Shown here piece after piece: positions 1 to 13,807 of a DNA stretch of 64,000 nucleotides; position 1 is the first letter of the stretch; every line of letters begins with the position of its first letter. The notes below the pieces were generated by a model, which saw nothing but the letters and a program-made list of their open reading frames with translations, searched no databases and was not told where the DNA came from. This DNA comes from Curvibacter sp. (GTDB lineage: Bacteria > Pseudomonadota > Gammaproteobacteria > Burkholderiales > Burkholderiaceae_C), in assembly GCA_004293725.1 (NCBI GenBank), contig REAW01000006.1:62001-126000 (forward strand), given 5' to 3'. Position numbers and translations under genes: made by a program.

Positions 1-474
1 CGCCATTTTCTGGACTATGAGCCAGGCATCCACTGGAGCCAGATGCAGATGCAAAGCGGAACCACAGGAATCAACACGCTGCGCATGTATTCACCCACCA
101 AACAAGCAATGGACCAGGATCCGGAAGGCCTCTTTATCCGCCGCTGGGTGCCTGAGCTGGCCCGGGTTCCCCTGCCCTACCTTGCCGAACCGTGGAAGAT
201 GGATGCCAGTATTCAACACATGGCGGGCTGCATGATGGGGAAGGACTATCCCTTGCCCATCGTGGATGACAAACAGGCCATGAAAGCTGCCAAAGACCGC
301 ATGTATGGCCTGCGCGAAACCCGCGAAGCCCGTCAAGAAGCGAGCAGTGTCCAGGCCCGGCATGGCTCCCGCAAGAGCGGCCTTCCGCCATCCACCCAGC
401 GGCGAGCCACTGCTGCAAAAAGCGTGGCAAAGGTGCCCGCCTCTGCATCCCCCCAGCGCGACTTGTTCGCCTGA
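1..474 (+). CDS. Cryptochrome/photolyase family protein, C-terminal part (5' end outside window)
   Basis: Frame 1 is open from the first base, so the gene begins upstream; 157 residues remain. The segment begins HFLDYEPGIHWSQMQMQSGT and continues through TGINTLRMYSP to DPEGLFIRRWVPEL, which is the end of the FAD-binding domain of photolyases and cryptochromes (Pfam FAD_binding_7). The family binds FAD and either repairs pyrimidine dimers with blue light or acts as a photoreceptor; which applies cannot be told from the C-terminus. After the conserved fold there is a basic, low-complexity tail of about 60 residues (from about residue 98) rich in Arg, Ser and Ala. It is the first visible gene of a rightward run and lies 18 bases before the DUF2256 gene. 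Confidence 0.88.
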   Translation, partial: RHFLDYEPGIHWSQMQMQSGTTGINTLRMYSPTKQAMDQDPEGLFIRRWVPELARVPLPYLAEPWKMDASIQHMAGCMMGKDYPLPIVDDKQAMKAAKDRMYGLRETREARQEASSVQARHGSRKSGLPPSTQRRATAAKSVAKVPASASPQRDLFA

Positions 475-492
475 AGCGCAAAGCCTCGGACC

Positions 493-657
493 ATGAAAAA
501 CGACTTCAAAGGCAACAAGCAGTCATTGCCCAGCAAGCCATGCGCGGTATGCGGTCGCACCATGACATGGCGCAAGGCCTGGGCCAAAAACTGGGAGCAT
601 GTGCTGTATTGCTCTGATGCCTGTCGCGCGCAAAAGTCCACCAAAAAGAATCCATGA
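493..657 (+). CDS. DUF2256 small zinc-ribbon protein
   Basis: A 54-residue protein. Its core is CAVCGRTMTWRKAWAKNWE followed by CSDAC: a CxxC pair, a Trp-rich basic stretch and a second CxxxC pair, the layout of DUF2256. The four Cys suggest a bound zinc, an inference from spacing. DUF2256 genes are commonly found beside photolyase and cryptochrome genes; the molecular role is unknown. The stop overlaps the next start as ATGA, which implies translational coupling to the iron-sulfur photolyase gene. Confidence 0.85.
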   Translation: MKNDFKGNKQSLPSKPCAVCGRTMTWRKAWAKNWEHVLYCSDACRAQKSTKKNP

Positions 658-2240
658 AGCCTGACACACCCACTCCACTGCCGCACAAGGTCCGCCATCT
701 GGTCATTGTGCTGGGTGACCAGCTTGACCTTGAGTCGACCGCGCTGCAGGACTTCGATGCTTCGCAAGATGTGGTGTGGATGGCCGAGGCAGCAGAAGAG
801 TCGACCCACGTGTGGTCGGCCAAACAGCGGATCGCGGTATTCCTGAGCGCGATGCGGCATTTTGCTGATACGTTGCAGACGCGGCGTTTTCCCTTGACAT
901 ACACCCGCTTGGGCGACAGCGCCCATGCGGGGACACTCGCGCAGCAGTTAAAGCAGTCCATTACCCAACTGCAGCCCGCTCGCCTCATCCTCACAGCGCC
1001 TGGCGATTGGCGCGTACTGCAAAGCTTGCGAGCGGTGGCAGATGCACAGGCGTTACCGTTGGACTTGCGCGACGACACGCATTTTTTCAGCACCGTGCGG
1101 GAATTTGCAGCCCATGCCAAAGGCCGAAAGCAACTGCGTCTCGAGTACTGGTACCGCGGACTGCGCCTGAAGCATGGCATCTTGATGGAGGGAAAAGCCC
1201 CAGTCGGTGGGCAATGGAACTTTGATGCGGACAACCGGGAGTCTTTTGGCAAGGCGGGCCCCCAGAATGTTCCGCCGCCCACCCGTTTTGCACCCGACCG
1301 TACGACCCAGGAAGTCATCGCGCTGGTCAACACCCGCTTTGCCGACCACCCCGGCACCCTTGACAGTTTTGGCTGGCCCGTCACCCGCGAGCAGGCGCTG
1401 GCAGCGCTGCAGGGCTTCGTGGCAGAGCGTCTGCCACTTTTTGGATTGTTTGAGGATGCCATGTGGGCTGGCGAGGCGTGGCTGTACCACTCGCACCTGA
1501 GCTGCGCACTCAACCTCAAACTCCTGAATCCGCGCGAAGTCGTGCAAGCCGCCGAAGACGCTTACCGCCGTGGCCATGCACCATTGGCTGCGGTGGAGGG
1601 CTTCATCCGCCAAATTCTGGGCTGGCGCGAATTTGTACGCGGCATTTATTGGACACAAATGCCGGAATATGCAGAGCGCAATGCACTGGATGCCCAGGCC
1701 GAACTACCCGATTGGTACTGGACGGGCGACACAGCTATGGCTTGCTTGAAAGACGCCATTGGCCAGACCCTGGAGCACGGCTACGCCCACCATATCCAGC
1801 GCCTGATGGTGACCGGGCTTTACGCCCTGCTCCTGGGCGTAAAACCGCAGGCCGTTCACGCCTGGTATCTCGGTGTCTATGTCGATGCCGTAGAGTGGGT
1901 AGAGTTGCCCAACACACTCGGCATGGGCCAGTTCGGTGATGGCGGGCTCATGGCCAGCAAGCCCTACGTCGCCAGCGGCAAATACATCCAGCGCATGAGC
2001 AACCATTGCAAAGGCTGCAAATATGACCCCGCGCAATCTATAGGGCCAAGAGCTTGCCCGTTCACCACCTTGTACTGGGACTTTTTGGAGCGCCATGAAA
2101 CGCTGCTGAAAAAAAATCCGCGCATGGCCATGCAACTCAAAAACCTGGCGCGGCTGGATGCTCCCACGCGCAGCGCCATCGCGCAGCAAGCCGCCGCGCA
2201 TCGCTTGGAACAGAGCGCCACTCACCCCAGCCAGAAATGA
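654..2240 (+). CDS. Iron-sulfur bacterial cryptochrome/(6-4) photolyase-type protein (DPRP family)
   Basis: 528 residues, matching the deoxyribodipyrimidine photolyase-related (FeS-BCP) family. The N-terminal half is a Rossmann-like antenna domain (LVIVLGDQL near residue 16) and the C-terminal half binds FAD. Cysteines C364, C452, C455 and C468 have spacings of 88, 3 and 13, the same as the four cluster ligands of Agrobacterium PhrB as I remember them (350, 438, 441, 454), so a [4Fe-4S] cluster is very likely. Characterised members repair (6-4) photoproducts using FAD and a lumazine antenna. The gene overlaps both neighbours by ATGA (starts at 654 and 2237), so DUF2256, this gene and the next are probably co-translated. 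Confidence 0.93.
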   Translation: MKPDTPTPLPHKVRHLVIVLGDQLDLESTALQDFDASQDVVWMAEAAEESTHVWSAKQRIAVFLSAMRHFADTLQTRRFPLTYTRLGDSAHAGTLAQQLKQSITQLQPARLILTAPGDWRVLQSLRAVADAQALPLDLRDDTHFFSTVREFAAHAKGRKQLRLEYWYRGLRLKHGILMEGKAPVGGQWNFDADNRESFGKAGPQNVPPPTRFAPDRTTQEVIALVNTRFADHPGTLDSFGWPVTREQALAALQGFVAERLPLFGLFEDAMWAGEAWLYHSHLSCALNLKLLNPREVVQAAEDAYRRGHAPLAAVEGFIRQILGWREFVRGIYWTQMPEYAERNALDAQAELPDWYWTGDTAMACLKDAIGQTLEHGYAHHIQRLMVTGLYALLLGVKPQAVHAWYLGVYVDAVEWVELPNTLGMGQFGDGGLMASKPYVASGKYIQRMSNHCKGCKYDPAQSIGPRACPFTTLYWDFLERHETLLKKNPRMAMQLKNLARLDAPTRSAIAQQAAAHRLEQSATHPSQK

Positions 2241-3430
2241 CGCTTTTTGTACCCACAAGACTGGCGGCTTTTGAACGGATGGCGGCAGTCGACCCTGATG
2301 CTTACGCCCGTACCCGCAATGACCTCACCGGCGCAGTCACTGGTCTTTCGCCCTACCTGACGCACGGACTGCTGACGCTGCGCGAAGTCTACGATTCGAT
2401 CAACGCCCGCCATGCGCTCGGGGCTCAGCACAAGCTGGTGTTTGAATTGGGCTGGCGTGCCTACTACCGGCATGTATGGACGCATCGGGGCAATGGCGTT
2501 CACCAGTCCCTGCACCCCGGGCCACTGCCTGATGAAGCTTACCGCCCGGCCATCCCCATGGATGTACAAACAGCCTGCACCGGAGTGCCAGCCATCGACC
2601 TTGCAGTGCGCACCCTTTATGAGACTGGATATCTCCACAACCACGCCCGCATGTGGCTTGCTAGCTACCTGGTGCATATCCGCAAAGTGCATTGGCATGC
2701 AGGAGCGCAGTGGATGCTGGGTTACCTGCTGGATGGGGACGTGGCCAGCAACCACTTGAGTTGGCAATGGGTGGCCGGCACCGCCAGCGTGAAGCCGTAC
2801 CTCTTCAATGCAGACAATGTGAAGAAATACGCGCCACGGCCCTGGCATAGCTTTGGCACCGCCATCGACACCCGCTATGAAGCCCTGGATACCTTGTCAC
2901 GTCGCCCCGACCGTGAAGACTGCACTGAAACGATTGGCGAACCAGGCCAGCACAACATCAGACCTGCCTGCACGCCAGCACCCACCGACCAACGCTGGGC
3001 AGCACCCGATCCCAAGGTAGCAAAAGGCAAAGATGTGTGGCTGGTCCACCCATGGTCCATGGGTTCAACGCCTGTAGAACCAACGGACAACATCTGCACC
3101 ATTGCCATCGGTTTGGCAGAATGCCATGCGCCGACTCCGTGGAGCGCGCAGCGCTGGCGTTTCGTCACTGAGGGTGTGGCGGCCCGAACCTCGCATCTGT
3201 GGTGGAGTACTGCAGTGCAATTGGCCGACGCGCTGCATGCAGCGCGGTCCGTCCAATGGCAACCTGACCCGCACATGGATGCCGCCCTGCTCCAAATGCA
3301 AAAGCGTTTACTGACAACCCAAGCGCAAACACATGTGCAGGCACAAGCGGCTGCGCCCCTGTTCGAAAACGTCACACCGCTGTGTGCCAGCTTTGCGCAA
3401 TGGTGGCGCAAGACCCAACTGATGCCCTAA
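2237..3430 (+). CDS. Photolyase-like FAD-binding protein without an N-terminal antenna domain
   Basis: 397 residues. Residues about 1-225 match the FAD-binding domain of photolyases: GLSPYLTHGLLTLREVY, FELGWRAYYRHVW, then NHARMW..ASYLVHIRKVHW and DGDVASNHLSWQWVAGT, the usual flavin-contacting segments. The protein starts directly in this domain, so the normal N-terminal antenna domain is missing. Instead there is a C-terminal region (about 255-397) with strand-like and helical segments (VWLVHPWSMG, NICTIAIGLAE, TSHLWWSTAVQLADALHAA). This might be a relocated antenna-like domain, which is an inference only. The start overlaps the preceding stop (ATGA), and the stop is 2 bases from the convergent dehydrogenase gene. 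Confidence 0.85.
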   Translation: MTLFVPTRLAAFERMAAVDPDAYARTRNDLTGAVTGLSPYLTHGLLTLREVYDSINARHALGAQHKLVFELGWRAYYRHVWTHRGNGVHQSLHPGPLPDEAYRPAIPMDVQTACTGVPAIDLAVRTLYETGYLHNHARMWLASYLVHIRKVHWHAGAQWMLGYLLDGDVASNHLSWQWVAGTASVKPYLFNADNVKKYAPRPWHSFGTAIDTRYEALDTLSRRPDREDCTETIGEPGQHNIRPACTPAPTDQRWAAPDPKVAKGKDVWLVHPWSMGSTPVEPTDNICTIAIGLAECHAPTPWSAQRWRFVTEGVAARTSHLWWSTAVQLADALHAARSVQWQPDPHMDAALLQMQKRLLTTQAQTHVQAQAAAPLFENVTPLCASFAQWWRKTQLMP

Positions 3431-3432
3431 CT

Positions 3433-4134
3433 TCACCACGGAATCTCTTGCCCTTGGTGGTCCACAAAATGTGCGCCCTGTTTGGCCTGGAGGCCGCGCA
3501 ACGTCGAAAGCATCCCGCGCACAGAGTCTTGCGGCTCCAGCAAATGGGGGACGCCTGCCGAAAAAGACTGGGACAACCTGGAGCGCACGGTGCCTGGCTG
3601 AAGGGCGACGACACGCAACTCCGGTTGTTTTCGCTGCAATTCGATCGCCGCTGTTTGCAAATACATGTTCAAGGCAGCTTTGGAAGCACGGTAGCCATAC
3701 CAGCCGCCCTTGTGGTTGTCGCTGATACTGCCCACCCGCGCGGAAAGCTTGGCATAGATGCTCGGACCTGAAGCTAACAAGGGCGCAAAGTAGCGCAACG
3801 CCATCAGGGGTCCCACCGCGTTGATTGCAAACGACTTGGCCAGCAATTCCGGGCGCAGTGCTGCTAGCGATTTCTCAGGTCCCACGCCGTCCATCGTGAG
3901 TGCGCCGGTAGCATCGACGATCAGATCGTAGGGTCCGTTCGCTGCAAGGTCGGCTACAAGTGATGGCAATGCGGCGGTGTCCAACAGATCGAATCTGCTG
4001 TCTTGGGATCGCGACAGCTCTTCTACCCAGATGCAGCGCGCGTCTTCTTGCAGCGCGCTGGCAAAGGCCTGACCAATCGCTCCATTCGCACCCAACACCA
4101 AAGCACGGTATTCGCGTTCAAACAATGAAGTCAT
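3433..4134 (-). CDS. SDR-family NAD(P)-dependent oxidoreductase
   Basis: 233 residues from the ATG at 4134; an in-frame ATG at 4158 is an alternative. It has the short-chain dehydrogenase cofactor motif LGANGAIG (residues 14-21), the NAVG segment near residue 105 and the catalytic pair Tyr148/Lys152 in GYRASKAAL. It resembles the CsgA-like branch of classical SDRs; the substrate is unknown. It is the last gene of a leftward set (98-residue protein, HiPIP, SDR). Similar SDR genes often accompany photolyase loci, so a role in the light response is plausible but not shown by the sequence. Confidence 0.85.
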   Translation of the reverse strand: MTSLFEREYRALVLGANGAIGQAFASALQEDARCIWVEELSRSQDSRFDLLDTAALPSLVADLAANGPYDLIVDATGALTMDGVGPEKSLAALRPELLAKSFAINAVGPLMALRYFAPLLASGPSIYAKLSARVGSISDNHKGGWYGYRASKAALNMYLQTAAIELQRKQPELRVVALQPGTVRSRLSQSFSAGVPHLLEPQDSVRGMLSTLRGLQAKQGAHFVDHQGQEIPW

Positions 4135-4163
4135 GTTTGTCGGAGCCCCATCACCCATAGCGG

Positions 4164-4505
4164 TCAAGCCTTTTTTGCCCACGCGTTGCACCAGCCCTTG
4201 CCTGCGACGCGTTTGCCAGCAAACAAGGGGCAACCACCTGCCGCGGCGCTGGCGGCTCCCTGGAACAGCGCACAGTTCGTGCAGACTTGCCCGGCCACGT
4301 ACTTGGGCTGCTTCGTCTTGTCCACTTTGGTGGCGTCCGCTTTGTAGCCGAAGCCAACGGCCTGAGGTTCCGTCTCTGCCACCATGGCTTGCGCTCTGGC
4401 CTGTAGCGCAGTTGCCGCTGCAGCGACCCCCACGATGGCGTGCATCATGAACACACGGCGAGGGTTCGTAGAAACGGTAGTGGCGAGTTTAAGAGGGTGT
4501 GACAT
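4164..4505 (-). CDS. High-potential iron-sulfur protein (HiPIP), Tat-exported
   Basis: 113 residues from the ATG at 4505, preceded by an AGGA-like ribosome site. Cys75, Cys78, Cys92 and Cys106 sit in QVCTNCALF, GGCPLF and GWCNAW, the classic HiPIP pattern for a [4Fe-4S] cluster. The N-terminus has twin arginines (Arg16-Arg17) followed by a hydrophobic stretch and an Ala-x-Ala site near residue 39, so export of the folded protein by Tat is expected. HiPIPs are periplasmic one-electron carriers, known from photosynthetic and respiratory chains of purple bacteria and relatives. It lies 29 bases upstream of the SDR gene. Confidence 0.93.
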   Translation of the reverse strand: MSHPLKLATTVSTNPRRVFMMHAIVGVAAAATALQARAQAMVAETEPQAVGFGYKADATKVDKTKQPKYVAGQVCTNCALFQGAASAAAGGCPLFAGKRVAGKGWCNAWAKKA

Positions 4506-4548
4506 AGATTTTTCCTGGGGTTTTAGGCTTGCGCCGGTTGCGAAAAAG

Positions 4549-4845
4549 TTAAGGGCTCGGCGCGTGCTGGTAAATGATGCGCTGGGGATGGATACCTTCG
4601 TCATAAATGATGGGGCCCTTGTAGGCGAACCGCACTTCGCTCGGTGTTTCAGCTTCCAGCAAATGCCGTTCGATGACCAAATTGGCAAGGGCCAGACGGT
4701 TGTCGCGGATCTGGCGTTTCAAATGGCCCAGCACATGTGTGAGTTGCGATGCGTCTTCCACATGCACCGTCCACTTCCAAGCTTCGCCCGCCGGAATCAT
4801 GCGAGCTTTCCCGGTCTTGTTGAGGAGCACGTAACTTACTTTCAT
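4549..4845 (-). CDS. Conserved-looking protein of unknown function, 98 residues
   Basis: A small, mixed-charge protein with no signal peptide, membrane segment or Cys. It has an N-terminal beta-like segment (MKVSYVLLN), a central part rich in His, Arg and Leu (LTHVLGHLKRQIRDNRLALANLVIERHLL) and a C-terminal AYKGPIIYDEGIHPQRI. I do not recognise the family. Its position as first gene of the leftward HiPIP-SDR operon, directly facing the MerR regulator, supports it being real and co-regulated. The HiPIP start is 43 bases downstream. Confidence 0.6.
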   Translation of the reverse strand: MKVSYVLLNKTGKARMIPAGEAWKWTVHVEDASQLTHVLGHLKRQIRDNRLALANLVIERHLLEAETPSEVRFAYKGPIIYDEGIHPQRIIYQHAPSP

Positions 4846-4876
4846 GGAACGAATTTAGCACCGCCGGCACAAAAAG

Positions 4877-4925
4877 CTACTCAATTCTGAAAATATTCGA
4901 TTTAAACTATTCAATACCTACTCAA
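4877..4925. promoter_or_regulatory. Three CTAYTCAA direct repeats between divergent genes (candidate MerR operator)
   Basis: CTACTCAA at 4877-4884, CTATTCAA at 4907-4914 and CTACTCAA at 4918-4925, starting 30 and 11 bases apart, so roughly on one face of the helix. The segment is AT-rich within GC-rich DNA and lies between the leftward HiPIP operon and the MerR-type gene. Tandem 11-base repeats are also how the light regulator CarH of Thermus binds its operator (established), which makes these good candidates for autoregulation. Binding is an inference. Confidence 0.5.
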
Positions 4926-4937
4926 AGTCATCCCATC

Positions 4938-5951
4938 ATGCCCCAATCGCCTTCTGCATCGCCAAGCACCGTTGCCAGTCATCGCATCGGTGCGGTATCT
5001 GCCTTGAGTGGTGTGCCTGTTCCCACACTGCGGGTCTGGGAGGTTCGGTATGCCGCTTTCAGTCCCCAGCTCACAAATGGCAACCAACGCGCCTACACCG
5101 ACGATGACGTGCTGCGCGCCACACTGCTCAAGCGCCTGACAGAGCAGGGCCACTCCATCCGCAATATTGCCAACCACACGGTCGCACGACTGAACGACCT
5201 GTTGCAACAGCAGTCGGCCACCCAGCGCCGAGCCAAGGCCCAGCAACCCGAGCAACATGCTGCAAGCGCTGCTGTCATCGGCTTGCCACTCGCAGCGCGC
5301 CTGGCAAGCAAGAAGTTCAAGCAAATTGCGGCGGCCCTTGCCATCGCCACGACCGACATCTACCCTGATCTCGAAACCGCACTGGCAGCCACCCTGACCG
5401 TGCAGCCACAGTTTCTGCTGGTGCGGGTGAACTCGCTACACGCCCTGGTGCAGGTTGATCTGCACCGACTCATTGAGCGCCACAAAATTCCGCAGGTCAT
5501 CGTGCTGTATGGCTTTGGGCAGGAACCGGTGGTTGAATCGATGAAGCGTTCAGGCATGGTGGTGCGCCGTGAGCCGGTATCCGACTATGAGCTCGCTGAC
5601 CTGATCAGCTCCGCCATGCTGATGGATGCGCCACAAGCGATGGAACATACGGGATTTGGCAGCACCATTCCACCACGCAAGTTCGACGACGCTACGCTGG
5701 TGCGCATGGCCGGCATATCCACCAACGTGCTGTGTGAATGTCCCCGGCATGTTGCAGAAATCATTGCGCAACTGGTGAGCTTTGAGCAATACAGCCAAGA
5801 GTGCCTGAACAAAAGCACCGAAGATGCGCGACTCCATGCCTACCTGCATTCTGTATCCGGTTCAGCCCGCGCTCTTTTTGAGCATGCGTTGCAAAGGGTG
5901 GCAGAGCACGAGGGAATAACCTCACTACTCAAGGAGGAAAATCTCTCCTAG
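4938..5951 (+). CDS. MerR-family regulator with Rossmann-like C-terminal domain (LitR/CarH-like layout)
   Basis: 337 residues. Residues 16-85 form a MerR helix-turn-helix (IGAVSALSGVPVPTLRVWE, then NGNQRAYTDDDV). Residues about 108-230 look like a flavodoxin/B12-type Rossmann fold (AAVIGLPLAA, ALAIATTD, FLLVRVNSL, QVIVLYGFG). The cobalamin-binding DxHxxG signature of true LitR/CarH light sensors is not visible. A third region carries C266, C268 and H271 (CECPRH) and a helical tail. Divergent orientation from the HiPIP operon and proximity to three photolyase-type genes suggest it controls this locus. Whether it senses light itself, or works with a B12-binding partner elsewhere, is open. Confidence 0.85.
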   Translation: MPQSPSASPSTVASHRIGAVSALSGVPVPTLRVWEVRYAAFSPQLTNGNQRAYTDDDVLRATLLKRLTEQGHSIRNIANHTVARLNDLLQQQSATQRRAKAQQPEQHAASAAVIGLPLAARLASKKFKQIAAALAIATTDIYPDLETALAATLTVQPQFLLVRVNSLHALVQVDLHRLIERHKIPQVIVLYGFGQEPVVESMKRSGMVVRREPVSDYELADLISSAMLMDAPQAMEHTGFGSTIPPRKFDDATLVRMAGISTNVLCECPRHVAEIIAQLVSFEQYSQECLNKSTEDARLHAYLHSVSGSARALFEHALQRVAEHEGITSLLKEENLS

Positions 5952-5962
5952 CGCTCTCAAAT

Positions 5963-5994
5963 ATTGCGTCAAAAGCTATCAATTAGGGAGCAAT
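5963..5994 (-). repeat. Dispersed Comamonadaceae-type repeat, copy 1
   Basis: On the minus strand it reads ATTGCTCCCTAATTGATAGC and then runs to GCAAT. It begins at the TGA stop of the sigma-54 activator gene. Core elements match the other copies in this window (GCTNN..ATAGCT..CGCAAT). Confidence 0.5.
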
Positions 5995-7916
5995 CAGGTC
6001 TTAAGCTTGCGGTACAACGTCTGCCGGCTGATGCCTAACTGGCGCGCCGCCAGCGACACATTGCCGTGCGCAGCCTCCAGCGCTTGCTGGATGGCGGCGT
6101 GGCCCATCGCCTGCAGACTCTGCGGGGCCTGGACGACGGCGGTCTCCATGGGCGCCACCTTCGCTTGGCTGCCAAGCTTCAGCGCATCCACCAAGTCGTC
6201 CGGCATATGGGCCCAGTCCAGCGTGGACTCAACATCGAGCAGCATGGCGCACGCGGTGCGCAGCACGCTGGCGTACTGGCGCAGGTTGCCCGGCCAGGCG
6301 TGGGCGCTCAAGCGGGCCAGCAGGTCGGGCGCTACCTGCACCTCGCGCTCCGGGCTCAGGTCACGCAACAAACGCTCGGTCAGAGCGCCAAAGTCGCTGC
6401 GCTCGCGCAGCGCGGGCAACTGCACGGTGAGGCCGTTAATGCGGTAGTACAAATCTTGGCGGAACGAGCCGCGCTCGGCGGCCTCCGCCAGCTTGCTGTG
6501 GGTGGCGCAGACCAGGCAGAAGTCCACCGCCACCGCTTTGCCCGCGCCTACCGGTGTTACGGTTCGCTCCTGAAGCACGCGCAGCAGCCGGGTTTGCATA
6601 GGCAGCGGCATGTCGCCAATCTCGTCCAGAAACAGCGTTCCTCCATCGGCCTCACGCAGGCGACCCAGGCTGCCCTCTTTGCGTGCGCCGGTAAAAGCGC
6701 CCGCCACATACCCAAACAGTTCCGACTCAATCAAGCTCTCAGGGATGGCGCCACAGTTGATGGCGACAAAGGGCGCGGCGCGGCGCGGGCCACTGGCATG
6801 TAGCGCGCGTGCAAACAACTCCTTGCCCACGCCCGACTCGCCTTGGATGAGGATGGGAATGGGCTTGGCGACCACGCGACGCGCTTTGTCGGCAGCGCTG
6901 CGCCAGCGCAGGTCGCCGGTGTCCAGGGCTTCCAGTGCATCACTGGCGAGGGTGCTGTTCGGCGCTCGTGCAGACAGGCTGGCGGTTGGCAGCACTGACG
7001 CGTCTACTTGCACCTGCGCAAACAGCATGGCGCCATTGGGTAGCCGCAACGCCTGGGCGTGTTGGGGGCGGCGTTTGTGGCGAGACAACAGATCGTCCAG
7101 CCGCACATCGAGCACACGCTCTAGCAAGGTAGCGCCAATGTCGCCGACATTCAAATGCAGCAGCGCCAGCCCAACGCGGTTGGCGCCCACAATCCAGCCG
7201 TCGTCCGACAGCGCGATGATGCCCTCGGCGACGCTGCCAATGCCTTCGGGCTGGGCATGCAGGTGCAGGCGAATATTGCGCTTGCAGGTGGCCACCATGA
7301 GCCGGTTCTCAATCATCCGGGCTGCAGTGCTGGCCAAGCCCAGCGAATGGCCGTGGCCATGGCGGTGGTCACCTGAGATGTCCAGCACGCCCATGAGCTC
7401 GCCCGTGGCAGAGAGGATGGGTGAGGCAGCGCAGGTCAAAAACCCATTGCGCTCCAGAAAGTGCTCGCCTCCATGAATCTCTACCGCAGTGCGCTCGGCC
7501 AATGCGGTGCCGATGGCATTGGTGCCGCGGTGCGCTTCGTGCCACGAGGCACCGCTGGTCAGCGCCACGCGCTCGGCCTTGCCTACAAAGCTGACATCCC
7601 CCAGGGTGTGCATCAGCATGCCATGCGGATCGGCCAGCACCACCACGCTTTGCCGGTGGCGCACTTGCTCAAACACATATTCCATCACCGGGCGCGAGTG
7701 GGCGAGCAGGACATGGCTATTGGCCAGCGCCTGGCGCAGGCTGGCGCTGCCGGCAAGGTCGGTGGCGGGGCGGCCAGTCGGCGCCAAGCCTGCAGCCAGG
7801 CTGCGGTGCCACGATCGAACCAGATGATCGTCCAGCACGCCCACAGGGCACTGGCCGGTTTCCAGCAGTTGTTGGCGGGCCTGTCGCAAGGCCAGCACGG
7901 GGGAGGTTTGTCGCAC
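5994..7916 (-). CDS. AcoR-type sigma-54-dependent transcriptional activator
   Basis: 640 residues from a GTG at 7916 preceded by CAGGAGACAAC, a good ribosome site; the frame stays open further upstream but has no family similarity there. A GAF-like sensor region (about 60-210, with [15 protein letters not shown] at 127-141) is followed by an AAA+ domain with Walker A GESGVGKE (359-366), the sigma-54 contact loop GAFTGA (406-411) and Walker B TLFLDE (427-432). A Fis-type helix-turn-helix closes the protein (618-638). This is the acetoin/aldehyde regulator family AcoR. It is divergent from an aldehyde dehydrogenase that carries a sigma-54 promoter and is the likely target. Confidence 0.92.
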
Positions 7917-8025
7917 GTTGTCTCCTGTGCAGGGTCGTGTTCGCCCCGCTGGGGCACAGTATGGGGGCGGACCGGTGAAGCAGGCAATGGTGCACACCCG
8001 CCCTTGCGTCCAAGTGTTCCATTTT

Positions 8026-8056
8026 GTGACACCTGTCACTGTGGCGAATCGTGACA
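8026..8056. promoter_or_regulatory. Palindromic upstream activator site plus extra half-site
   Basis: GTGACA-CC-TGTCAC is a perfect inverted repeat at 8026-8039, and a further GTGACA lies at 8051-8056. The sites are about 85-115 bases upstream of the sigma-54 promoter, a usual distance for enhancer-binding activators. Binding by the AcoR-type protein is inferred from position. Confidence 0.55.
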
Positions 8057-8138
8057 GGCTTGGCTTGCGGACAGCTTGCGCGGAATGCTGCAATGCAACA
8101 AACCCAATGAAATCAAGGCTCCAGGGCGGGCGGGCACA

Positions 8139-8154
8139 TGGCACGCGTCTTGAG
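8139..8154 (+). promoter_or_regulatory. Sigma-54 (-24/-12) promoter of the aldehyde dehydrogenase gene
   Basis: TGGCACGCGTCTTGAG matches the consensus TGGCACG-N4-TTGCW with correct spacing; the -12 element reads GA instead of GC. It lies 70 bases before the aldehyde dehydrogenase ATG and downstream of a palindromic activator site, opposite a sigma-54 activator gene. All parts of a sigma-54-controlled unit are therefore present. Confidence 0.72.
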
Positions 8155-8223
8155 ATACCTCAGAACCTGCCGGACAACCCGATGCAGGCTCATTTGAACC
8201 AAGCACAAGAGGACGACACCACC

Positions 8224-9747
8224 ATGGCTATTTACGCAGCACCCGGCGCCGCAGGCGCCAAGATTGCCTACAAGGCGCAGTACAACAACTTCATCGGCGG
8301 CAAGTTTGTGCCCCCGGTCAAAGGCCAGTACTTTGACGTAATCACCCCGGTCAGCGGCAAGGTCTACACCCAGGCCGCGCGCTCCACCGCAGAAGACATT
8401 GAGCTGGCACTGGACGCCGCCCATGCTGCGTCTGACGCCTGGGGCAAGACCGACGCCGCCACACGCAGCAATATCTTGCTCAAAATTGCCGACCGCATCG
8501 AACAAAACCTGGAGCTGCTGGCCTACGCTGAGACCGTGGATAACGGCAAAGCGATCCGCGAAACGCTCAACGCCGACATCCCGCTCACCGTGGACCACTT
8601 CCGCTACTTTGCGGGCTGCGTGCGTGCACAAGAAGGCGCATTGAGCAACATCGACGAGAACACCGTGGCGTACCACATCCAGGAACCGCTGGGCGTCGTG
8701 GGCCAGATCATTCCGTGGAACTTCCCCATTCTGATGGCAGCGTGGAAACTGGCCCCCGCCATTGGCGCAGGCAACTGCGTGGTGCTCAAGCCGGCTGAGT
8801 CCACACCCATTTCCATCCTGATCATGGCGGAGCTGATTGCCGACCTGCTGCCCCCCGGCGTGCTCAACATCGTCAACGGCTACGGCCGCGAGGCCGGCAT
8901 GCCGCTGGCCACCAGCAAACGCATTGCCAAGATTGCCTTCACGGGCTCCACCACCACCGGGCGCGTAATTGCGCAAGCTGCTGCCAACAACCTGATTCCG
9001 GCTACGCTGGAACTGGGTGGCAAGAGCCCCAACGTGTTCTTCGCCGACATCATGGACAAGGACGACGCGTTTCTGGACAAAGCCGTGGAAGGTCTGGTGC
9101 TGTTTGCCTTCAACCAGGGCGAGGTGTGCACCTGCCCTTCACGCGCGTTGATTCAAGAATCCATTTACGACAAGTTCATGGAGCGTGTGTTGAAGCGCGT
9201 AGCAGCGATCCAGCAAAAGAACCCGCTGGACACCGACAGCATGATGGGCGCACAGGCCAGCAAAGAGCAGCTGACCAAGATCTTGTCGTACCTGGACCTG
9301 GGCAAGCAGGAAGGTGCTGAAGTCCTCATCGGCGGCGGACAAGCCCACCTCGGTGGCGACCTCGAAGGTGGCTACTACGTGCAGCCCACGCTGTTCAAGG
9401 GCCACAACAAGATGCGCATCTTCCAGGAAGAAATCTTTGGCCCCGTGTTGGCTGTGACCACCTTCAAGGACGAAGCCGAAGCCCTGGCCATTGCCAACGA
9501 CACCTTGTACGGCCTGGGCGCGGGCGTGTGGAGCCGCAACGGCAACGTGGCCTATCGCATGGGCCGCGCCATCAAGGCAGGCCGTGTGTGGACCAACTGC
9601 TACCACGCCTACCCTGCGCACGCAGCGTTTGGTGGCTACAAGGAATCCGGCATCGGCCGCGAAACCCACAAGATGATGCTGGACCACTACCAGCAGACCA
9701 AGAACCTGCTGGTTTCGTACTCTGAGAACAAGCTGGGGTTCTTTTAA
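8224..9747 (+). CDS. NAD-dependent aldehyde dehydrogenase (acetaldehyde dehydrogenase, AldB/ExaC type)
   Basis: 507 residues. It oxidises aldehydes, most likely acetaldehyde, to the acid with NAD. Catalytic Cys302 (GEVCTCPS), general base Glu263 ([10 protein letters not shown]) and oxyanion Asn166 (PWNFP) are present, and the length fits. The ATG at 8224 is chosen because the family begins with a short xIYAAPGxxGA segment; the frame is open upstream without family similarity. A sigma-54 promoter and a divergent AcoR-type activator precede it and a DUF779 gene follows, the usual context for acetaldehyde dehydrogenases induced by acetoin, ethanol or short aldehydes. Confidence 0.95.
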
Positions 9748-9805
9748 AGAGTTGCTTGAGCCCCTTCTCGCCGGAGGGGAAGCCACGCGGCTACCCAAGG
9801 GGCGC

Positions 9806-9976
9806 CCACCTCATACTGGAGTACCAGAAATCGGTGGTCACCCCTTGGGAATCCACGTGGCGTTTTTGCTATTGAGTGTAGAGCGATAGCACTCCAACGC
9901 CCCAGCTTGGGGGGCTGTGTGGGTGGACACCGATTTCTGGTACCCCAGTATGAGGTGGCCACCCACACAGCCCCCC
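9806..9976. repeat. Two interlocked inverted repeats between aldehyde dehydrogenase and DUF779 genes
   Basis: Outer pair: 9806-9836 is complementary to 9928-9958 over 30 of 31 bases. Inner pair: GGGGGGCTGTGTGGGTGG at 9909-9926 is perfectly complementary to 9959-9976. The right arm of the first pair is the loop of the second, so in a simple transcript the two stems exclude each other unless a pseudoknot forms. The pair fills most of the 266-base gap between the two genes and could be a regulatory structure or a decayed mobile repeat. Confidence 0.75.
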
Positions 9977-10013
9977 ACGCAGCGAGCGCCAACAACACAA
10001 CGGAGACAAAACC

Positions 10014-10391
10014 ATGGTCGACAAAGTCATAGCCACCCCCGCTGCCCTGGAACTCGTGGCCTTTCTCAAAACCAAACACGGCCCCGACCTCATGTTTCAC
10101 CAAAGCGGTGGTTGCTGCGACAACAGCGCAGCCAACTGCTATTTGCCCGGCGAAATCACCATGGGCGCGGGTGATGTGTACCTGGGCGACATCGGTGGCA
10201 GCCCGTTTTACATTGGCATTGGCCAGTACGAATACTGGAAACACACCCAACTCATCATCGACGTGATCGAAGGCCATGGCGGCACCTTCTCCCTTGAAGG
10301 GCCCGAGGGCAAGGCCTTTCACACCCGTTCTCGGGTGTTTACCGATGCAGAGTTGGCAGAGCTGGGAATAGCAAAACCACAGGCCCAGTAG
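10014..10391 (+). CDS. DUF779 protein
   Basis: 125 residues. The pattern GGCCDNSAANCYLPGE at about residues 32-47, followed by GDVYLGDIGGSPFYIG, is characteristic of DUF779, a small cytoplasmic family often placed directly after acetaldehyde dehydrogenase genes. The Cys-rich motif suggests metal or redox chemistry, but no function is established to my knowledge. It shares the strand with the dehydrogenase but is separated by 266 bases holding two interlocked inverted repeats, so its level may be set separately. Confidence 0.9.
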   Translation: MVDKVIATPAALELVAFLKTKHGPDLMFHQSGGCCDNSAANCYLPGEITMGAGDVYLGDIGGSPFYIGIGQYEYWKHTQLIIDVIEGHGGTFSLEGPEGKAFHTRSRVFTDAELAELGIAKPQAQ

Positions 10392-10430
10392 AACTTAATA
10401 GCCAAATTGGCATGGAGCCCATATGGGACG

Positions 10431-10466
10431 TGCGCAAGTAGCTACAAAAACAATAGCGTTTATTGC
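10431..10466 (-). repeat. Dispersed Comamonadaceae-type repeat, copy 2
   Basis: On the minus strand it contains ACGCTATTG, then GTAGCTACTTGCGCA, and overlaps the TAA stop of the DUF1501 gene (10460-10462). A perfect palindrome CCCATATGGG lies just beyond it at 10418-10427. The copy sits between the convergent DUF779 and DUF1501 genes. Confidence 0.55.
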
Positions 10467-11998
10467 ATGAATCCAAGATCGGTTGGATAGTCAGGCCGCC
10501 CGGCAGCGGTGCCGAAGTTGGTAATCTTGGGCAACACCCCCGGCATCTCGGCATCGGTCACGCCAAACCACTTGGCCAGCGTGGCGGCGTACTGGTCGGT
10601 TGATGTGCGTGGCAACAACCGCCCCTGGCCTACATGCCATGCGTTCTCGGGCAGGTAGTTGCCGCCACCGTCCCTGGTGTCACTCACGCTGATCGGGGGC
10701 GCCACGCCGTAAAAGCGCTGGCCATTTACCGCACCGCCCACCACCATGTGGTGGCTGCCCCAGCCGTGGTCGGAGCCGTCGCCATTGGAGGCCAGCGTGC
10801 GACCAAAATCCGACGCGGTAAACGCTGTGACCTGGTTGGCGACCCCCAGCTCCTCGGTAGCCTGGTAGAAGGCCGTCATGGCGTTACTCAAGCGGCTCAT
10901 CAAGGTGGTTTGTTGCGCCACCAGGTTGTCGTGCAGATCAAAGCCCCCCATGGATACAAAGAACACCTGGCGCCGCGCGCCCAGCACACTGCGCCCCTTG
11001 ATCAGGCGCGCCACCATCTGCAATTGCGCGGCCAGGCCATCTGTCCCAAACTGCGCGGTATTGAAGGGTCGTTGATTGGGTGCGCTTCCATAGATCGAAG
11101 GACTCAACGCCAACGCATTGGTAACCGAGGCTTCGGCGGCCAATGCACGTCCGGTCACTATTTTGTATTCGTTCTCCAGCACATGGGTACGCCCCTGGCG
11201 AAGCAGGGTATCGATCGTGCTGCGCACCATGGATGAACCGTACACGGTGTTATCGGTGGCGGGCCGGATTTTGATGGCCCCCGAGGTGCTGACCTGGTAT
11301 TGCAGTGCGGTGTCGCCCGACAAAAACACGGCATTGCCCGACACCGACATGCAGGTGAACAGCGAATTGCTGTTGAGGTTGTCTTGCAGTACCAGATCGC
11401 CCATGTTGCCGCCCCAGCCCACCGTGGACCCCTCGGGCGACGATGATTGCCAGAGCGACTGCTGGTCATTGTGCGAAAAAAGCTGGGGCGGACGCGGGTA
11501 AAGCGTGCGGTTGTTGCTGTTGTACTGGGCACGCGTGAGCGGCACCACCAAGGGCCCCACATTCAGCTGCACTGCAGCCTTGCCCGTGTTGAACAAACCG
11601 GTCAGGCCGGTCATGGCGGGGTGAAAGGCAAATTCCCGGTTCATCGCGCCCAGTGCATCCACCGGTGGGGCCAGGGGTGTTAGCCGCGTGGGAGTGAGTG
11701 CCGCCTTGGCCAGGGCAATGCCGCCGGCCGTTTGTCCGGCGCCGCCGCCGCGAATGGTGTTGTAGAGGTTGTAGCTCGGGTCGTCATAGGCCATGACGGT
11801 GTTGGCATAGTCATTGCCCCCAAACATGAAGACGCAGACCAGCGCTTTGTAGTCGCCAGCAGGGGCATTGAAGGCTGCGGCCTCACCAATGGCAGCGAGG
11901 TTGAGAGCGAAGGGCAAGGCGGTACCCGTCAGGGCGAGCTGGCCACTGCGGCGCAAAAAGGCGCGGCGTGTTTGGAGTTCGGGCGAAAGCAACGGCAT
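10460..11998 (-). CDS. DUF1501 protein, Tat-exported
   Basis: 512 residues. The N-terminus has a twin-arginine signal (TRRAFLRRSGQLALTG near residues 10-25) and an Ala-rich hydrophobic stretch. The body matches DUF1501, an alkaline-phosphatase/sulfatase-like fold: VFMFGGNDYANTV early, and FVSMGGFDLHDNL plus ASDFGRTLASNGDGSDHGWG later, with Asp and His residues typical of metal sites in that superfamily. The substrate is unknown. It lies 9 bases downstream of a DUF1800 gene; the two families almost always occur as a pair, which suggests a two-component periplasmic or surface system. Confidence 0.93.
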   Translation of the reverse strand: MPLLSPELQTRRAFLRRSGQLALTGTALPFALNLAAIGEAAAFNAPAGDYKALVCVFMFGGNDYANTVMAYDDPSYNLYNTIRGGGAGQTAGGIALAKAALTPTRLTPLAPPVDALGAMNREFAFHPAMTGLTGLFNTGKAAVQLNVGPLVVPLTRAQYNSNNRTLYPRPPQLFSHNDQQSLWQSSSPEGSTVGWGGNMGDLVLQDNLNSNSLFTCMSVSGNAVFLSGDTALQYQVSTSGAIKIRPATDNTVYGSSMVRSTIDTLLRQGRTHVLENEYKIVTGRALAAEASVTNALALSPSIYGSAPNQRPFNTAQFGTDGLAAQLQMVARLIKGRSVLGARRQVFFVSMGGFDLHDNLVAQQTTLMSRLSNAMTAFYQATEELGVANQVTAFTASDFGRTLASNGDGSDHGWGSHHMVVGGAVNGQRFYGVAPPISVSDTRDGGGNYLPENAWHVGQGRLLPRTSTDQYAATLAKWFGVTDAEMPGVLPKITNFGTAAGRPDYPTDLGFMQ

Positions 11999-12007
11999 AG
12001 GAGCCCC

Positions 12008-13807
12008 TTATTTTTGAATCAGGTATTCGGGGCAGGCCATCACCATCAGCACGGCCGCGCACACGCGCTGGCGCTTGGTATTGGCCGAAGTGCCAGAGTT
12101 CACAGCCACACCCAGCAGACCGTTGGCAATCGCCGTTTGGGTTGCGGGCGACAACTGTCCAGCACACAACAACAGGTTGAGCTTGCGCACCAGGGCCGCC
12201 GGGTCCAGCACCAAGGTGAGCTCGGTGCTATAGGCCGCGTAAATGTCCCTGCTATTGAACCCCGAATCGATCACACCCATCATGAAGTTGAGGTAGCCCC
12301 CCACACTGCTTTCGGTCACCAACTGAAACTCGGGCGCCACTTTGCCTGCACTCAGCGCAGTGCCGGGAGGCACATACCCTGGGCGAAAGAAGTTGAACAC
12401 CGACGGCGAGCGCAACGGGCTCTGGCCAAGCTGGCTGCCGGCGTTGCTCAGATCACCAATCTTCCAGGCACCGCTGGCAGAGCCCACGCCAAACGTACGC
12501 CCCCATTGCACCAGTCGCACCATGGGCTCACGCAACTTGCCGTACTCCGGCGCCGTGAGGCCGGTGGCGTTGCGCGCCTCGGCATCCAAAACAATAGCGG
12601 CGAACACAAACGCCAGGTCACCGCGCTGGCCCTGGCCGTTGTCGGCAAACACGGCCGCCACGCGGGCCACATACTGCGGACTGGGGTTGCTGGTTACCAG
12701 GCGCTGGATCATTTGCTTGCAAAAGAAGGGCGCAGTGTTCGGGTGGTTAAACAGGGCATCCAGTGCGGTCTTCAGCGCCGCTGGGGCCGGGGTGTCCGCG
12801 TCAATGATGGTGTTGAGAAACTCGACTCGCTCCGGGGAGTGGTCAGTGGCCGTCAAGCGCATGGGCAGGCGGGCAAAGGCCGTATTTCCAACGGTATTGC
12901 CGTTGGCGGTGACGTTGACGTTTTGGCTCATGTCCACGTCGTAGCCGGTAAACACACGTGCCAAGTTGCTCACGTCGCTGGAGGTGTAGGTTTCTTGGGG
13001 GTTGCCGCTGCCATCGAGCTTGAGCGTGCCATCGTTGTTGAGCAGGTGCAGGCCCACCGTGAACAGCTGCATGACCTCACGGGCGTAGTTTTCATCGGGT
13101 TGGCGACCCGACGAGTTTCCTTTTTTGTTGCCCTTGGTGTTGAGGTAGTAGCCCATGGCCACGTTCAGCGTCACCGCCTCCAGCAGCGCACGGAAATTGC
13201 CAAACGAAAAGGCACACAAAGTGTCCCAGTAGTGCGCCATGGCGTGGCTGCGCCAGCGAAAGTCCAGACCGCTGAGCGAGACCACAAAGAACTCCGAGAG
13301 TGCCAGCCCCATGCGCTTGCGCATGGGGTCGTTGGCCGTCATGAGCTGCTGCCACGCCATGTAGTCGCCGGGGTAGCTTTGGTCGTAATAGTTGTTGGTG
13401 TTGAAGGGGTCGCCGTAGCCCTGGCTATTGAGCCAATCCCAGCCTTTGGTGCCAAAGTGTGTACCCACCTGCCGCTCTATCCATCCGGCGTACCCTAGGC
13501 TTCGCACCTGGGCAATGTCTGCATCATTGGCGGAAAACTGGGCCTGCTGCAAAAAACGCGAGGCTTGCTCGTCGCTGATGCTGACGCCGCTCAAGGCACT
13601 GGCAGCGGCCAGGCCCGCCAGAGAAATGGTGCGGCCACCGGTGGGGGTGGCCATGGCGCCACCATCGCTACCCGCGCCACTGCCGCAGGCGGCCAGGGCG
13701 GCAGCGGCTGCCAGGGCAACAGCGGTGAGGGCACCAGACTCCAGTCGGGTAGTGCCGGGGGAAGGGGGGGCCGTTGCGGCATCGGCCTCGTCCACAAACT
13801 CGCGCAT
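12008..13807 (-). CDS. DUF1800 protein, probable lipoprotein
   Basis: 599 residues. A hydrophobic segment ends in a lipobox-like LAAC with Cys41, so lipid anchoring is likely, although the signal is preceded by an unusually long hydrophilic leader of about 25 residues. DUF1800 features include EASRFLxQAxF-like text (DEQASRFLQQAQFSAND), ENYAREVMQLFTVGLHLLN and the late FLNTIIDADTPAPAALKTALDALFNHPNTAPFF. Function is unknown. GGAGCC lies 7 bases before the ATG. It is the first gene of the DUF1800-DUF1501 operon and is divergent from a hybrid histidine kinase, 188 bases away. Confidence 0.92.
   Translation of the reverse strand: MREFVDEADAATAPPSPGTTRLESGALTAVALAAAAALAACGSGAGSDGGAMATPTGGRTISLAGLAAASALSGVSISDEQASRFLQQAQFSANDADIAQVRSLGYAGWIERQVGTHFGTKGWDWLNSQGYGDPFNTNNYYDQSYPGDYMAWQQLMTANDPMRKRMGLALSEFFVVSLSGLDFRWRSHAMAHYWDTLCAFSFGNFRALLEAVTLNVAMGYYLNTKGNKKGNSSGRQPDENYAREVMQLFTVGLHLLNNDGTLKLDGSGNPQETYTSSDVSNLARVFTGYDVDMSQNVNVTANGNTVGNTAFARLPMRLTATDHSPERVEFLNTIIDADTPAPAALKTALDALFNHPNTAPFFCKQMIQRLVTSNPSPQYVARVAAVFADNGQGQRGDLAFVFAAIVLDAEARNATGLTAPEYGKLREPMVRLVQWGRTFGVGSASGAWKIGDLSNAGSQLGQSPLRSPSVFNFFRPGYVPPGTALSAGKVAPEFQLVTESSVGGYLNFMMGVIDSGFNSRDIYAAYSTELTLVLDPAALVRKLNLLLCAGQLSPATQTAIANGLLGVAVNSGTSANTKRQRVCAAVLMVMACPEYLIQK

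Follow-up and report, generated by a model that had tools for sequence, protein, structure and literature searches.

The first 5,951 nucleotides of a 64,000-nucleotide stretch of DNA from a Curvibacter species (GenBank assembly GCA_004293725.1, contig REAW01000006.1, positions 62,001 to 126,000 of the forward strand; hereafter the window) encode three photolyase-superfamily proteins and a DUF2256 protein, converging on genes for a conserved 98-residue protein (U98), a high-potential iron-sulfur protein (HiPIP) and a short-chain dehydrogenase/reductase (SDR), with a gene for a MerR-type regulator divergent from the latter. This arrangement had been put forward from the sequence alone (the original prediction) and was borne out by Pfam matches and by the sequence overlaps. 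The pairing of HiPIP and photolyase genes is not accidental in the family to which the bacterium, a Rhodoferax-like freshwater one, belongs, and it is new. We propose, with a probability of roughly 60%, that the cluster forms a module for photo-damage and photo-oxidative stress in which a class III-type LitR is the local switch. The strongest facts are the linkage of the HiPIP gene and the candidate operator of the regulator gene. We regard the cluster as real and conserved, a variation on the known theme of LitR and photolyases in which the HiPIP branch and a candidate sensor site are the new parts.

Linkage of HiPIP and photolyase genes in relatives

The original prediction had called for a comparison of gene order in relatives, and this comparison revealed a co-occurrence of HiPIP and photolyase genes above expectation. 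Among 200 genomes of the family, 96 contained a HiPIP gene (PF01355), 102 a photolyase gene of the PF04244 type and 63 both. The HiPIP gene was found not more than 15 kb from the PF04244 photolyase gene in 16 of these 63, compared with 0.65 expected from random placement in 4.5 Mb genomes, and not more than 15 kb from a gene for this type of MerR regulator in 13 genomes, against an expectation of 0.23. In the five genomes from outside the family that have both genes, a small sample, no linkage was seen. The outcome that had been named beforehand as speaking against one system, namely that the leftward genes are not kept with the photolyase genes in relatives, did not occur.

With a profile of the MerR regulator, 48 of 399 family genomes gave a total of 50 matches at E values no higher than 1e-60. 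The neighbourhoods of 40 MerR genes (35 of the 50 matches and five of nine found among relatives) were read with tblastn within 8.5 kb; they contained genes for the iron-sulfur (Fe-S) photolyase in 21 cases, DUF2256 in 19, a PHR1-type protein in 15, a NewPHL-type protein in 15, HiPIP in 14, DCC in 13 and Rrf2 in 13. A photolyase-superfamily gene of any type was present at 30 of the 40 loci and at 10 of the 14 that bear a HiPIP gene. At locus L068 the MerR gene is followed by one (10684-11220) for a protein of some 178 residues that matches no Pfam family; the protein has a look-alike in L023 (9215-9748) and belongs to a cluster that recurs at 6 of 54 compared loci.

Close reading of 16 HiPIP contexts showed the HiPIP gene adjoining photolyase genes in L159-L162, which are already among the 16 linked genomes; L151, where the MerR match is weaker, and L158 lie outside the earlier count and also pair the two. 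In L154, where the 16 kb read gave no match to photolyases, HiPIP and SDR genes form a pair (6911-8025), so these two may also go together outside the cluster.

In a tree of 58 HiPIPs, which rests on few columns and has many open forks, the linked HiPIPs cluster (10 label changes versus 19.3 in shuffles, none of 500 shuffles being as low), and the group of six to which the window HiPIP belongs is supported and consists of linked HiPIPs throughout. This suggests, from the sequences, that the linked HiPIPs are a lineage kept with these clusters.

U98 has no family match in Pfam or NCBIfam, and its predicted structure is confident for residues 1-60 only. When 84,980 species, each represented by a single genome, were scanned with the U98 profile in a pattern-limited search with 100 candidate stretches, 12 U98 loci emerged. 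The records that hold them bear, without exception, the names Rhodoferax, Comamonas, Comamonadaceae or uncultured beta proteobacterium; three of the 12 are contigs that were also read from relatives' genomes. In whole-genome searches U98 was found in 5 of 61 relatives and in 2 of 399 family genomes, its own genome being counted both times, and is thus itself rare. At the 12 loci, several of which are on contigs that stop within the cluster, the MerR gene is kept in 10, the SDR gene in 10 (two cut by a contig end), the HiPIP gene in 7 and a photolyase-superfamily gene in 9. In 8 of the 12 the MerR and U98 genes, or the places where they would stand, have an Rrf2-family gene (Pfam) between them; a gene for a DCC-type thiol-disulfide oxidoreductase after U98, SOUL and DUF3429 are other additions in U98-bearing relatives. 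In L016, L019 (cut by the contig end) and L020 the genes for U98, DCC, HiPIP, SDR and DUF2256 are followed on the same strand by the Fe-S photolyase gene in what looks, by gene order, like one operon. The ratio of nonsynonymous to synonymous substitution rates (dN/dS) of U98 was 0.05-0.14 in 8 of 8 pairs, several with dS near saturation, which indicates purifying selection. Since the gene set is conserved in kin, the cluster is not a chance run of open reading frames.

In a distant relative (L025, U98 27% identical) genes for MerR, Rrf2, U98 and a DUF2805-like protein lie in one stretch (5561-12152), which also reads as photolyase, DUF2237, folB-like and pterin dehydratase genes; this content suggests a supply of pterin or folate for photolyase antennae. 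Shortly after U98 a response-regulator-like protein is encoded in L021 (6143-6868, by sight) and in L025 (10532-11362, Trans_reg_C, Pfam).

The regulator and its candidate operator

The original prediction had described a MerR-type regulator with a B12-domain-like fold and had pointed to LitR/CarH-type control of photolyases as known. The likeness to LitR/CarH stood: the best solved match of a 48-sequence profile is CarH (5c8d, 2e-12), for the helix-turn-helix (HTH) part only, and the operator layout fits. A B12 domain is unsupported by sequence: Pfam gave no B12-binding family, NCBIfam only an HTH-level match to CarH (25 bits of 400), and the middle domain has a Rossmann/receiver-type fold for which CarH is one of many comparable matches. 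An extra C-terminal helical domain carries the pattern CxCPxH...C...H, of which C266, C268, H271, C289 and H300 are invariant in 48 of 48 homologues.

Over residues 1-327 the protein is 34% identical to the MerR protein of a Burkholderia anthina cluster that contains DUF2256, GTP cyclohydrolase I, sigma-70 family sigma factor, DUF3429, SDR and photolyase genes. Class III LitR is described, in excerpts of PMC9758184 and PMC6739363, as lacking B12-domain similarity in its C-terminus, as responding to light without B12 and as needing another chromophore; an excerpt of PMC9758184 adds that light changes its absorption. The window regulator has, at the sequence level, a DNA-binding domain of the LitR/CarH type and a C-terminus without B12 similarity. 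Given this lack of a B12 family match and a full-length relative in the light-type cluster of B. anthina, the protein probably belongs to the class III type of LitR; this assignment was made from the published description and the B. anthina relative rather than from the B. multivorans LitR itself.

The sequence CTATTCAATACCTACTCAA, a direct repeat with an 11-bp period, ends 12 bases before the MerR start codon and has no other exact match in the 2.95 Mb assembly. With no or one mismatch, the candidate operator was found just upstream of the MerR gene at all 17 loci compared, a set that did not include L022. A TCA pair at spacing 11 was present in 40 of 54 upstream regions, compared with at most 10 of 54 for any other spacing from 5 to 24; TCAA pairs at spacing 11 were present in 24 of these regions versus a mean of 0.33, and a largest value of 3, in 300 shuffles. 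CarH binds tandem 11-bp direct repeats of the form nnnnTnnACAn, according to an excerpt of PMC9304148. The promoter region shared by the MerR and U98 genes has this layout, with a third box at 4877-4884, and binding of the regulator to it is predicted.

A proposed light-stress module and its alternatives

In the dark the regulator, bound to the direct repeats, would keep the U98-HiPIP-SDR operon and the MerR gene itself repressed. Light would lift this repression by way of a cofactor other than B12; the sensor that holds it is probably the C-terminal helical domain. The exported HiPIP would then serve as periplasmic one-electron carrier under light stress rather than feeding the photolyases, with SDR and U98 in accessory roles. 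From the general properties of their families, the three photolyases would share out the repair of cyclobutane pyrimidine dimers (CPDs), (6-4) photoproducts and single-stranded CPDs. A further-reaching version, which we consider doubtful, is that Burkholderiaceae have a dedicated light-controlled HiPIP branch, in which the CxCPxH...C...H domain of a class III-type LitR would bind a metal, an Fe-S cluster or haem as non-B12 sensor of light or photo-oxidation and switch on the periplasmic carrier together with the photolyases, which would keep respiration going under light stress.

Several observations weigh against the proposed module. Of the 40 MerR loci, 10 have no photolyase-superfamily gene and 26 no HiPIP gene within reach, some of them being on short contigs; HiPIP genes are present at 2 of 17 loci with the nearest MerR proteins versus 12 of 23 with more distant ones, and 10 of the 16 HiPIP contexts read closely gave no photolyase match. 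The genes compared are related, and the counts are therefore not independent. The 11-bp TCA pair is missing in 14 of the 54 upstream regions, including those of L022, a near relative with U98, and of Burkholderia, Caballeronia and Methylomagnum. The promoter region of the photolyase operon itself contains no copy of the operator, up to four mismatches being allowed; one shared switch for both operons is therefore not shown, and the rightward operon may be controlled otherwise. The class III assignment comes by way of the B. anthina relative, and light control of the module is what we infer.

It is possible, though not probable, that the regulator senses photo-oxidative or redox stress by metal, Fe-S or thiol chemistry at the five invariant Cys/His residues rather than light itself. 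Besides this invariance, the Rrf2-family gene at two thirds of the U98 loci is in favour of such a sensor, as is the finding that in Vibrio cholerae the blue-light response depends on a MerR-like protein whose gene neighbours phr, in a model whose figure has reactive oxygen species acting on the MerR-like protein (PMC5241685, in excerpt); the light-dependent absorption reported for class III LitR argues against it. We consider it rather unlikely that the HiPIP donates electrons in photosynthesis or ordinary respiration and that its proximity to photolyase genes reflects a general grouping of light-related genes without shared function. The protein (PF01355, 85.7 bits versus a cut-off of 22, with four cysteines and an export signal recognized by eye) has as nearest solved structure 1hlq (2.1e-24), which we take to be the HiPIP from Rhodoferax fermentans, and is the only HiPIP found in its assembly, both of which fit such a role. 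No photosynthetic reaction-centre gene (PF00124) was found in the assembly, which is 82.65% complete, and this speaks against a photosynthetic HiPIP; the grouping of cluster-linked HiPIPs in the tree also argues against this alternative.

A direct electron path between HiPIP and photolyases, which would link flavin photochemistry to electron transfer as the original prediction suggested, is very improbable. Both HiPIP and Fe-S photolyase contain 4Fe-4S clusters by family and are neighbours in many genomes, and excerpts of PMC12082625 and PMC3204975 describe signals of the oxidised photolyase cluster in electron paramagnetic resonance as similar, not identical, to those of HiPIP. However, a twin-arginine export motif was seen by eye in 24 of 24 HiPIPs listed (22 distinct places, one a fragment), which places the carrier across the membrane from the photolyases, and these act on DNA. 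That two unrelated operons merely converge here by chance has next to no probability: the units do have separate promoters, with the operator at one only, but the set stays together in kin, among which L016, L019 and L020 have the genes for U98, HiPIP and SDR ahead of the Fe-S photolyase gene on the same strand, and conserved order and linkage far above expectation are what chance would not give.

For the light-stress module, the five candidate ligand residues and the operator make the question of the class III chromophore an experimental one, if the window regulator is truly of class III. The recurrent linkage suggests a role of HiPIP outside photosynthesis and plain respiration, in the light-stress physiology of freshwater bacteria.

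Locus layout and known systems

Features of the locus (coordinates are window positions, negative numbers lying before the window; gene families are Pfam matches)
Feature	Position	Strand	Basis
PHR1, class-I-like photolyase/cryptochrome gene, 3' part	1..474	+	PF03441 FAD_binding_7, 3.8e-30; cut by window edge
DUF2256 small protein	493..657	+	PF10013, 2.4e-20
Fe-S prokaryotic (6-4)-type photolyase (FeS-BCP/PhrB/CryB family)	654..2240	+	DPRP PF04244, 1.8e-74
NewPHL-like short photolyase-superfamily protein	2237..3430	+	FAD_binding_7 PF03441, 1e-24, residues 69-187 only
SDR	3433..4134	-	adh_short PF00106, 4.6e-11
HiPIP with twin-arginine signal	4164..4505	-	PF01355 HIPIP, 2.7e-24
U98, conserved 98-residue protein without family	4549..4845	-	no Pfam or NCBIfam match
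Single operator-like box CTACTCAA, U98 side	4877..4884	+	sequence; aligned in five near kin, window included
Candidate LitR operator CTATTCAA-N3-CTACTCAA, 11-bp direct repeat	4907..4925	+	sequence; conservation in kin; spacing test
MerR-type regulator, class III LitR-like	4938..5951	+	MerR_1 PF13411, 3.3e-14

The rightward run begins outside the window with a DUF2805 gene (-1427 to -1095, Pfam), followed by PHR1, whose whole gene, read beyond the window edge, extends from -1085 to 474 (519 amino acids). The stop/start overlaps of the original prediction are present, two ATGA overlaps (654/657 and 2237/2240) at which the Fe-S photolyase and NewPHL-like genes start inside the end of the preceding gene; the span of 3.4 kb given for the three photolyase genes is about 4.5 kb, the first gene being incomplete in the window. 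The stops of the two convergent runs are at 3430 and 3433, and 92 bases separate the MerR and U98 genes. For SDR, whose nearest NCBIfam family is PRK09009 (151 bits versus a cut-off of 330), a start at 4134 is likelier than one at 4233, because a relative's match begins at residue 1 of the former.

Directly upstream of the DUF2805-photolyase operon lies uvrA (-4590 to -1555, named by reading the sequence), so that genes of excision repair and photorepair adjoin here. Beyond the regulator gene a sigma-54 activator with GAF domain (5994-8144, minus strand, Pfam) and a divergent gene that reads as NAD-dependent aldehyde dehydrogenase (7918-9747, plus strand) seem unrelated to the light cluster.

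The Fe-S photolyase (PDB matches 9hnk, 1.9e-156; PhrB 4dja, 3.3e-154; CryB 3zxs, 3.7e-148) resembles the FeS-BCP or prokaryotic (6-4) photolyases in its full-length match, its PF04244 domain and its cluster cysteines as read from the alignment, with no difference among the features compared; repair of (6-4) photoproducts is a family assignment. Proteins of the NewPHL class have an N-terminal catalytic domain, no N-terminal antenna domain and a C-terminal lid domain, and repair CPDs in single-stranded DNA. The window protein is likened to them by this definition, not by a NewPHL sequence: photolyase chains in the PDB align its residues 30-197 to their FAD domain, which is thus N-terminal and without antenna domain, and some 200 residues at the C-terminus are covered by neither the Pfam nor the PDB photolyase matches.

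With the class II LitR regulon of Pseudomonas (PplR/PmlR) the cluster shares photolyase, cryptochrome-like and SDR genes, theirs being under LitR; the excerpt of PMC9758184 that describes it names a LOV partner protein, which was not looked for in the window, and no HiPIP. Class I CarH/LitR of Thermus, Bacillus and Myxococcus shares the HTH of 5c8d and the tandem 11-bp direct repeats at the promoter (PMC9304148, in excerpt), whereas the window regulator is without B12-binding family match, has the additional C-terminal Cys/His domain and is preceded by boxes with TnnTCA rather than TnnACA. Unlike the window, the B. anthina stretch does not list HiPIP, U98, Fe-S photolyase or NewPHL in its incomplete gene table, and the Burkholderia MerR gene has no CTAYTCAA pair in front. 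The window regulator shares with the class III LitR of Burkholderia multivorans its place in the MerR family, its occurrence in Burkholderiales and the lack of a recognisable B12 domain.

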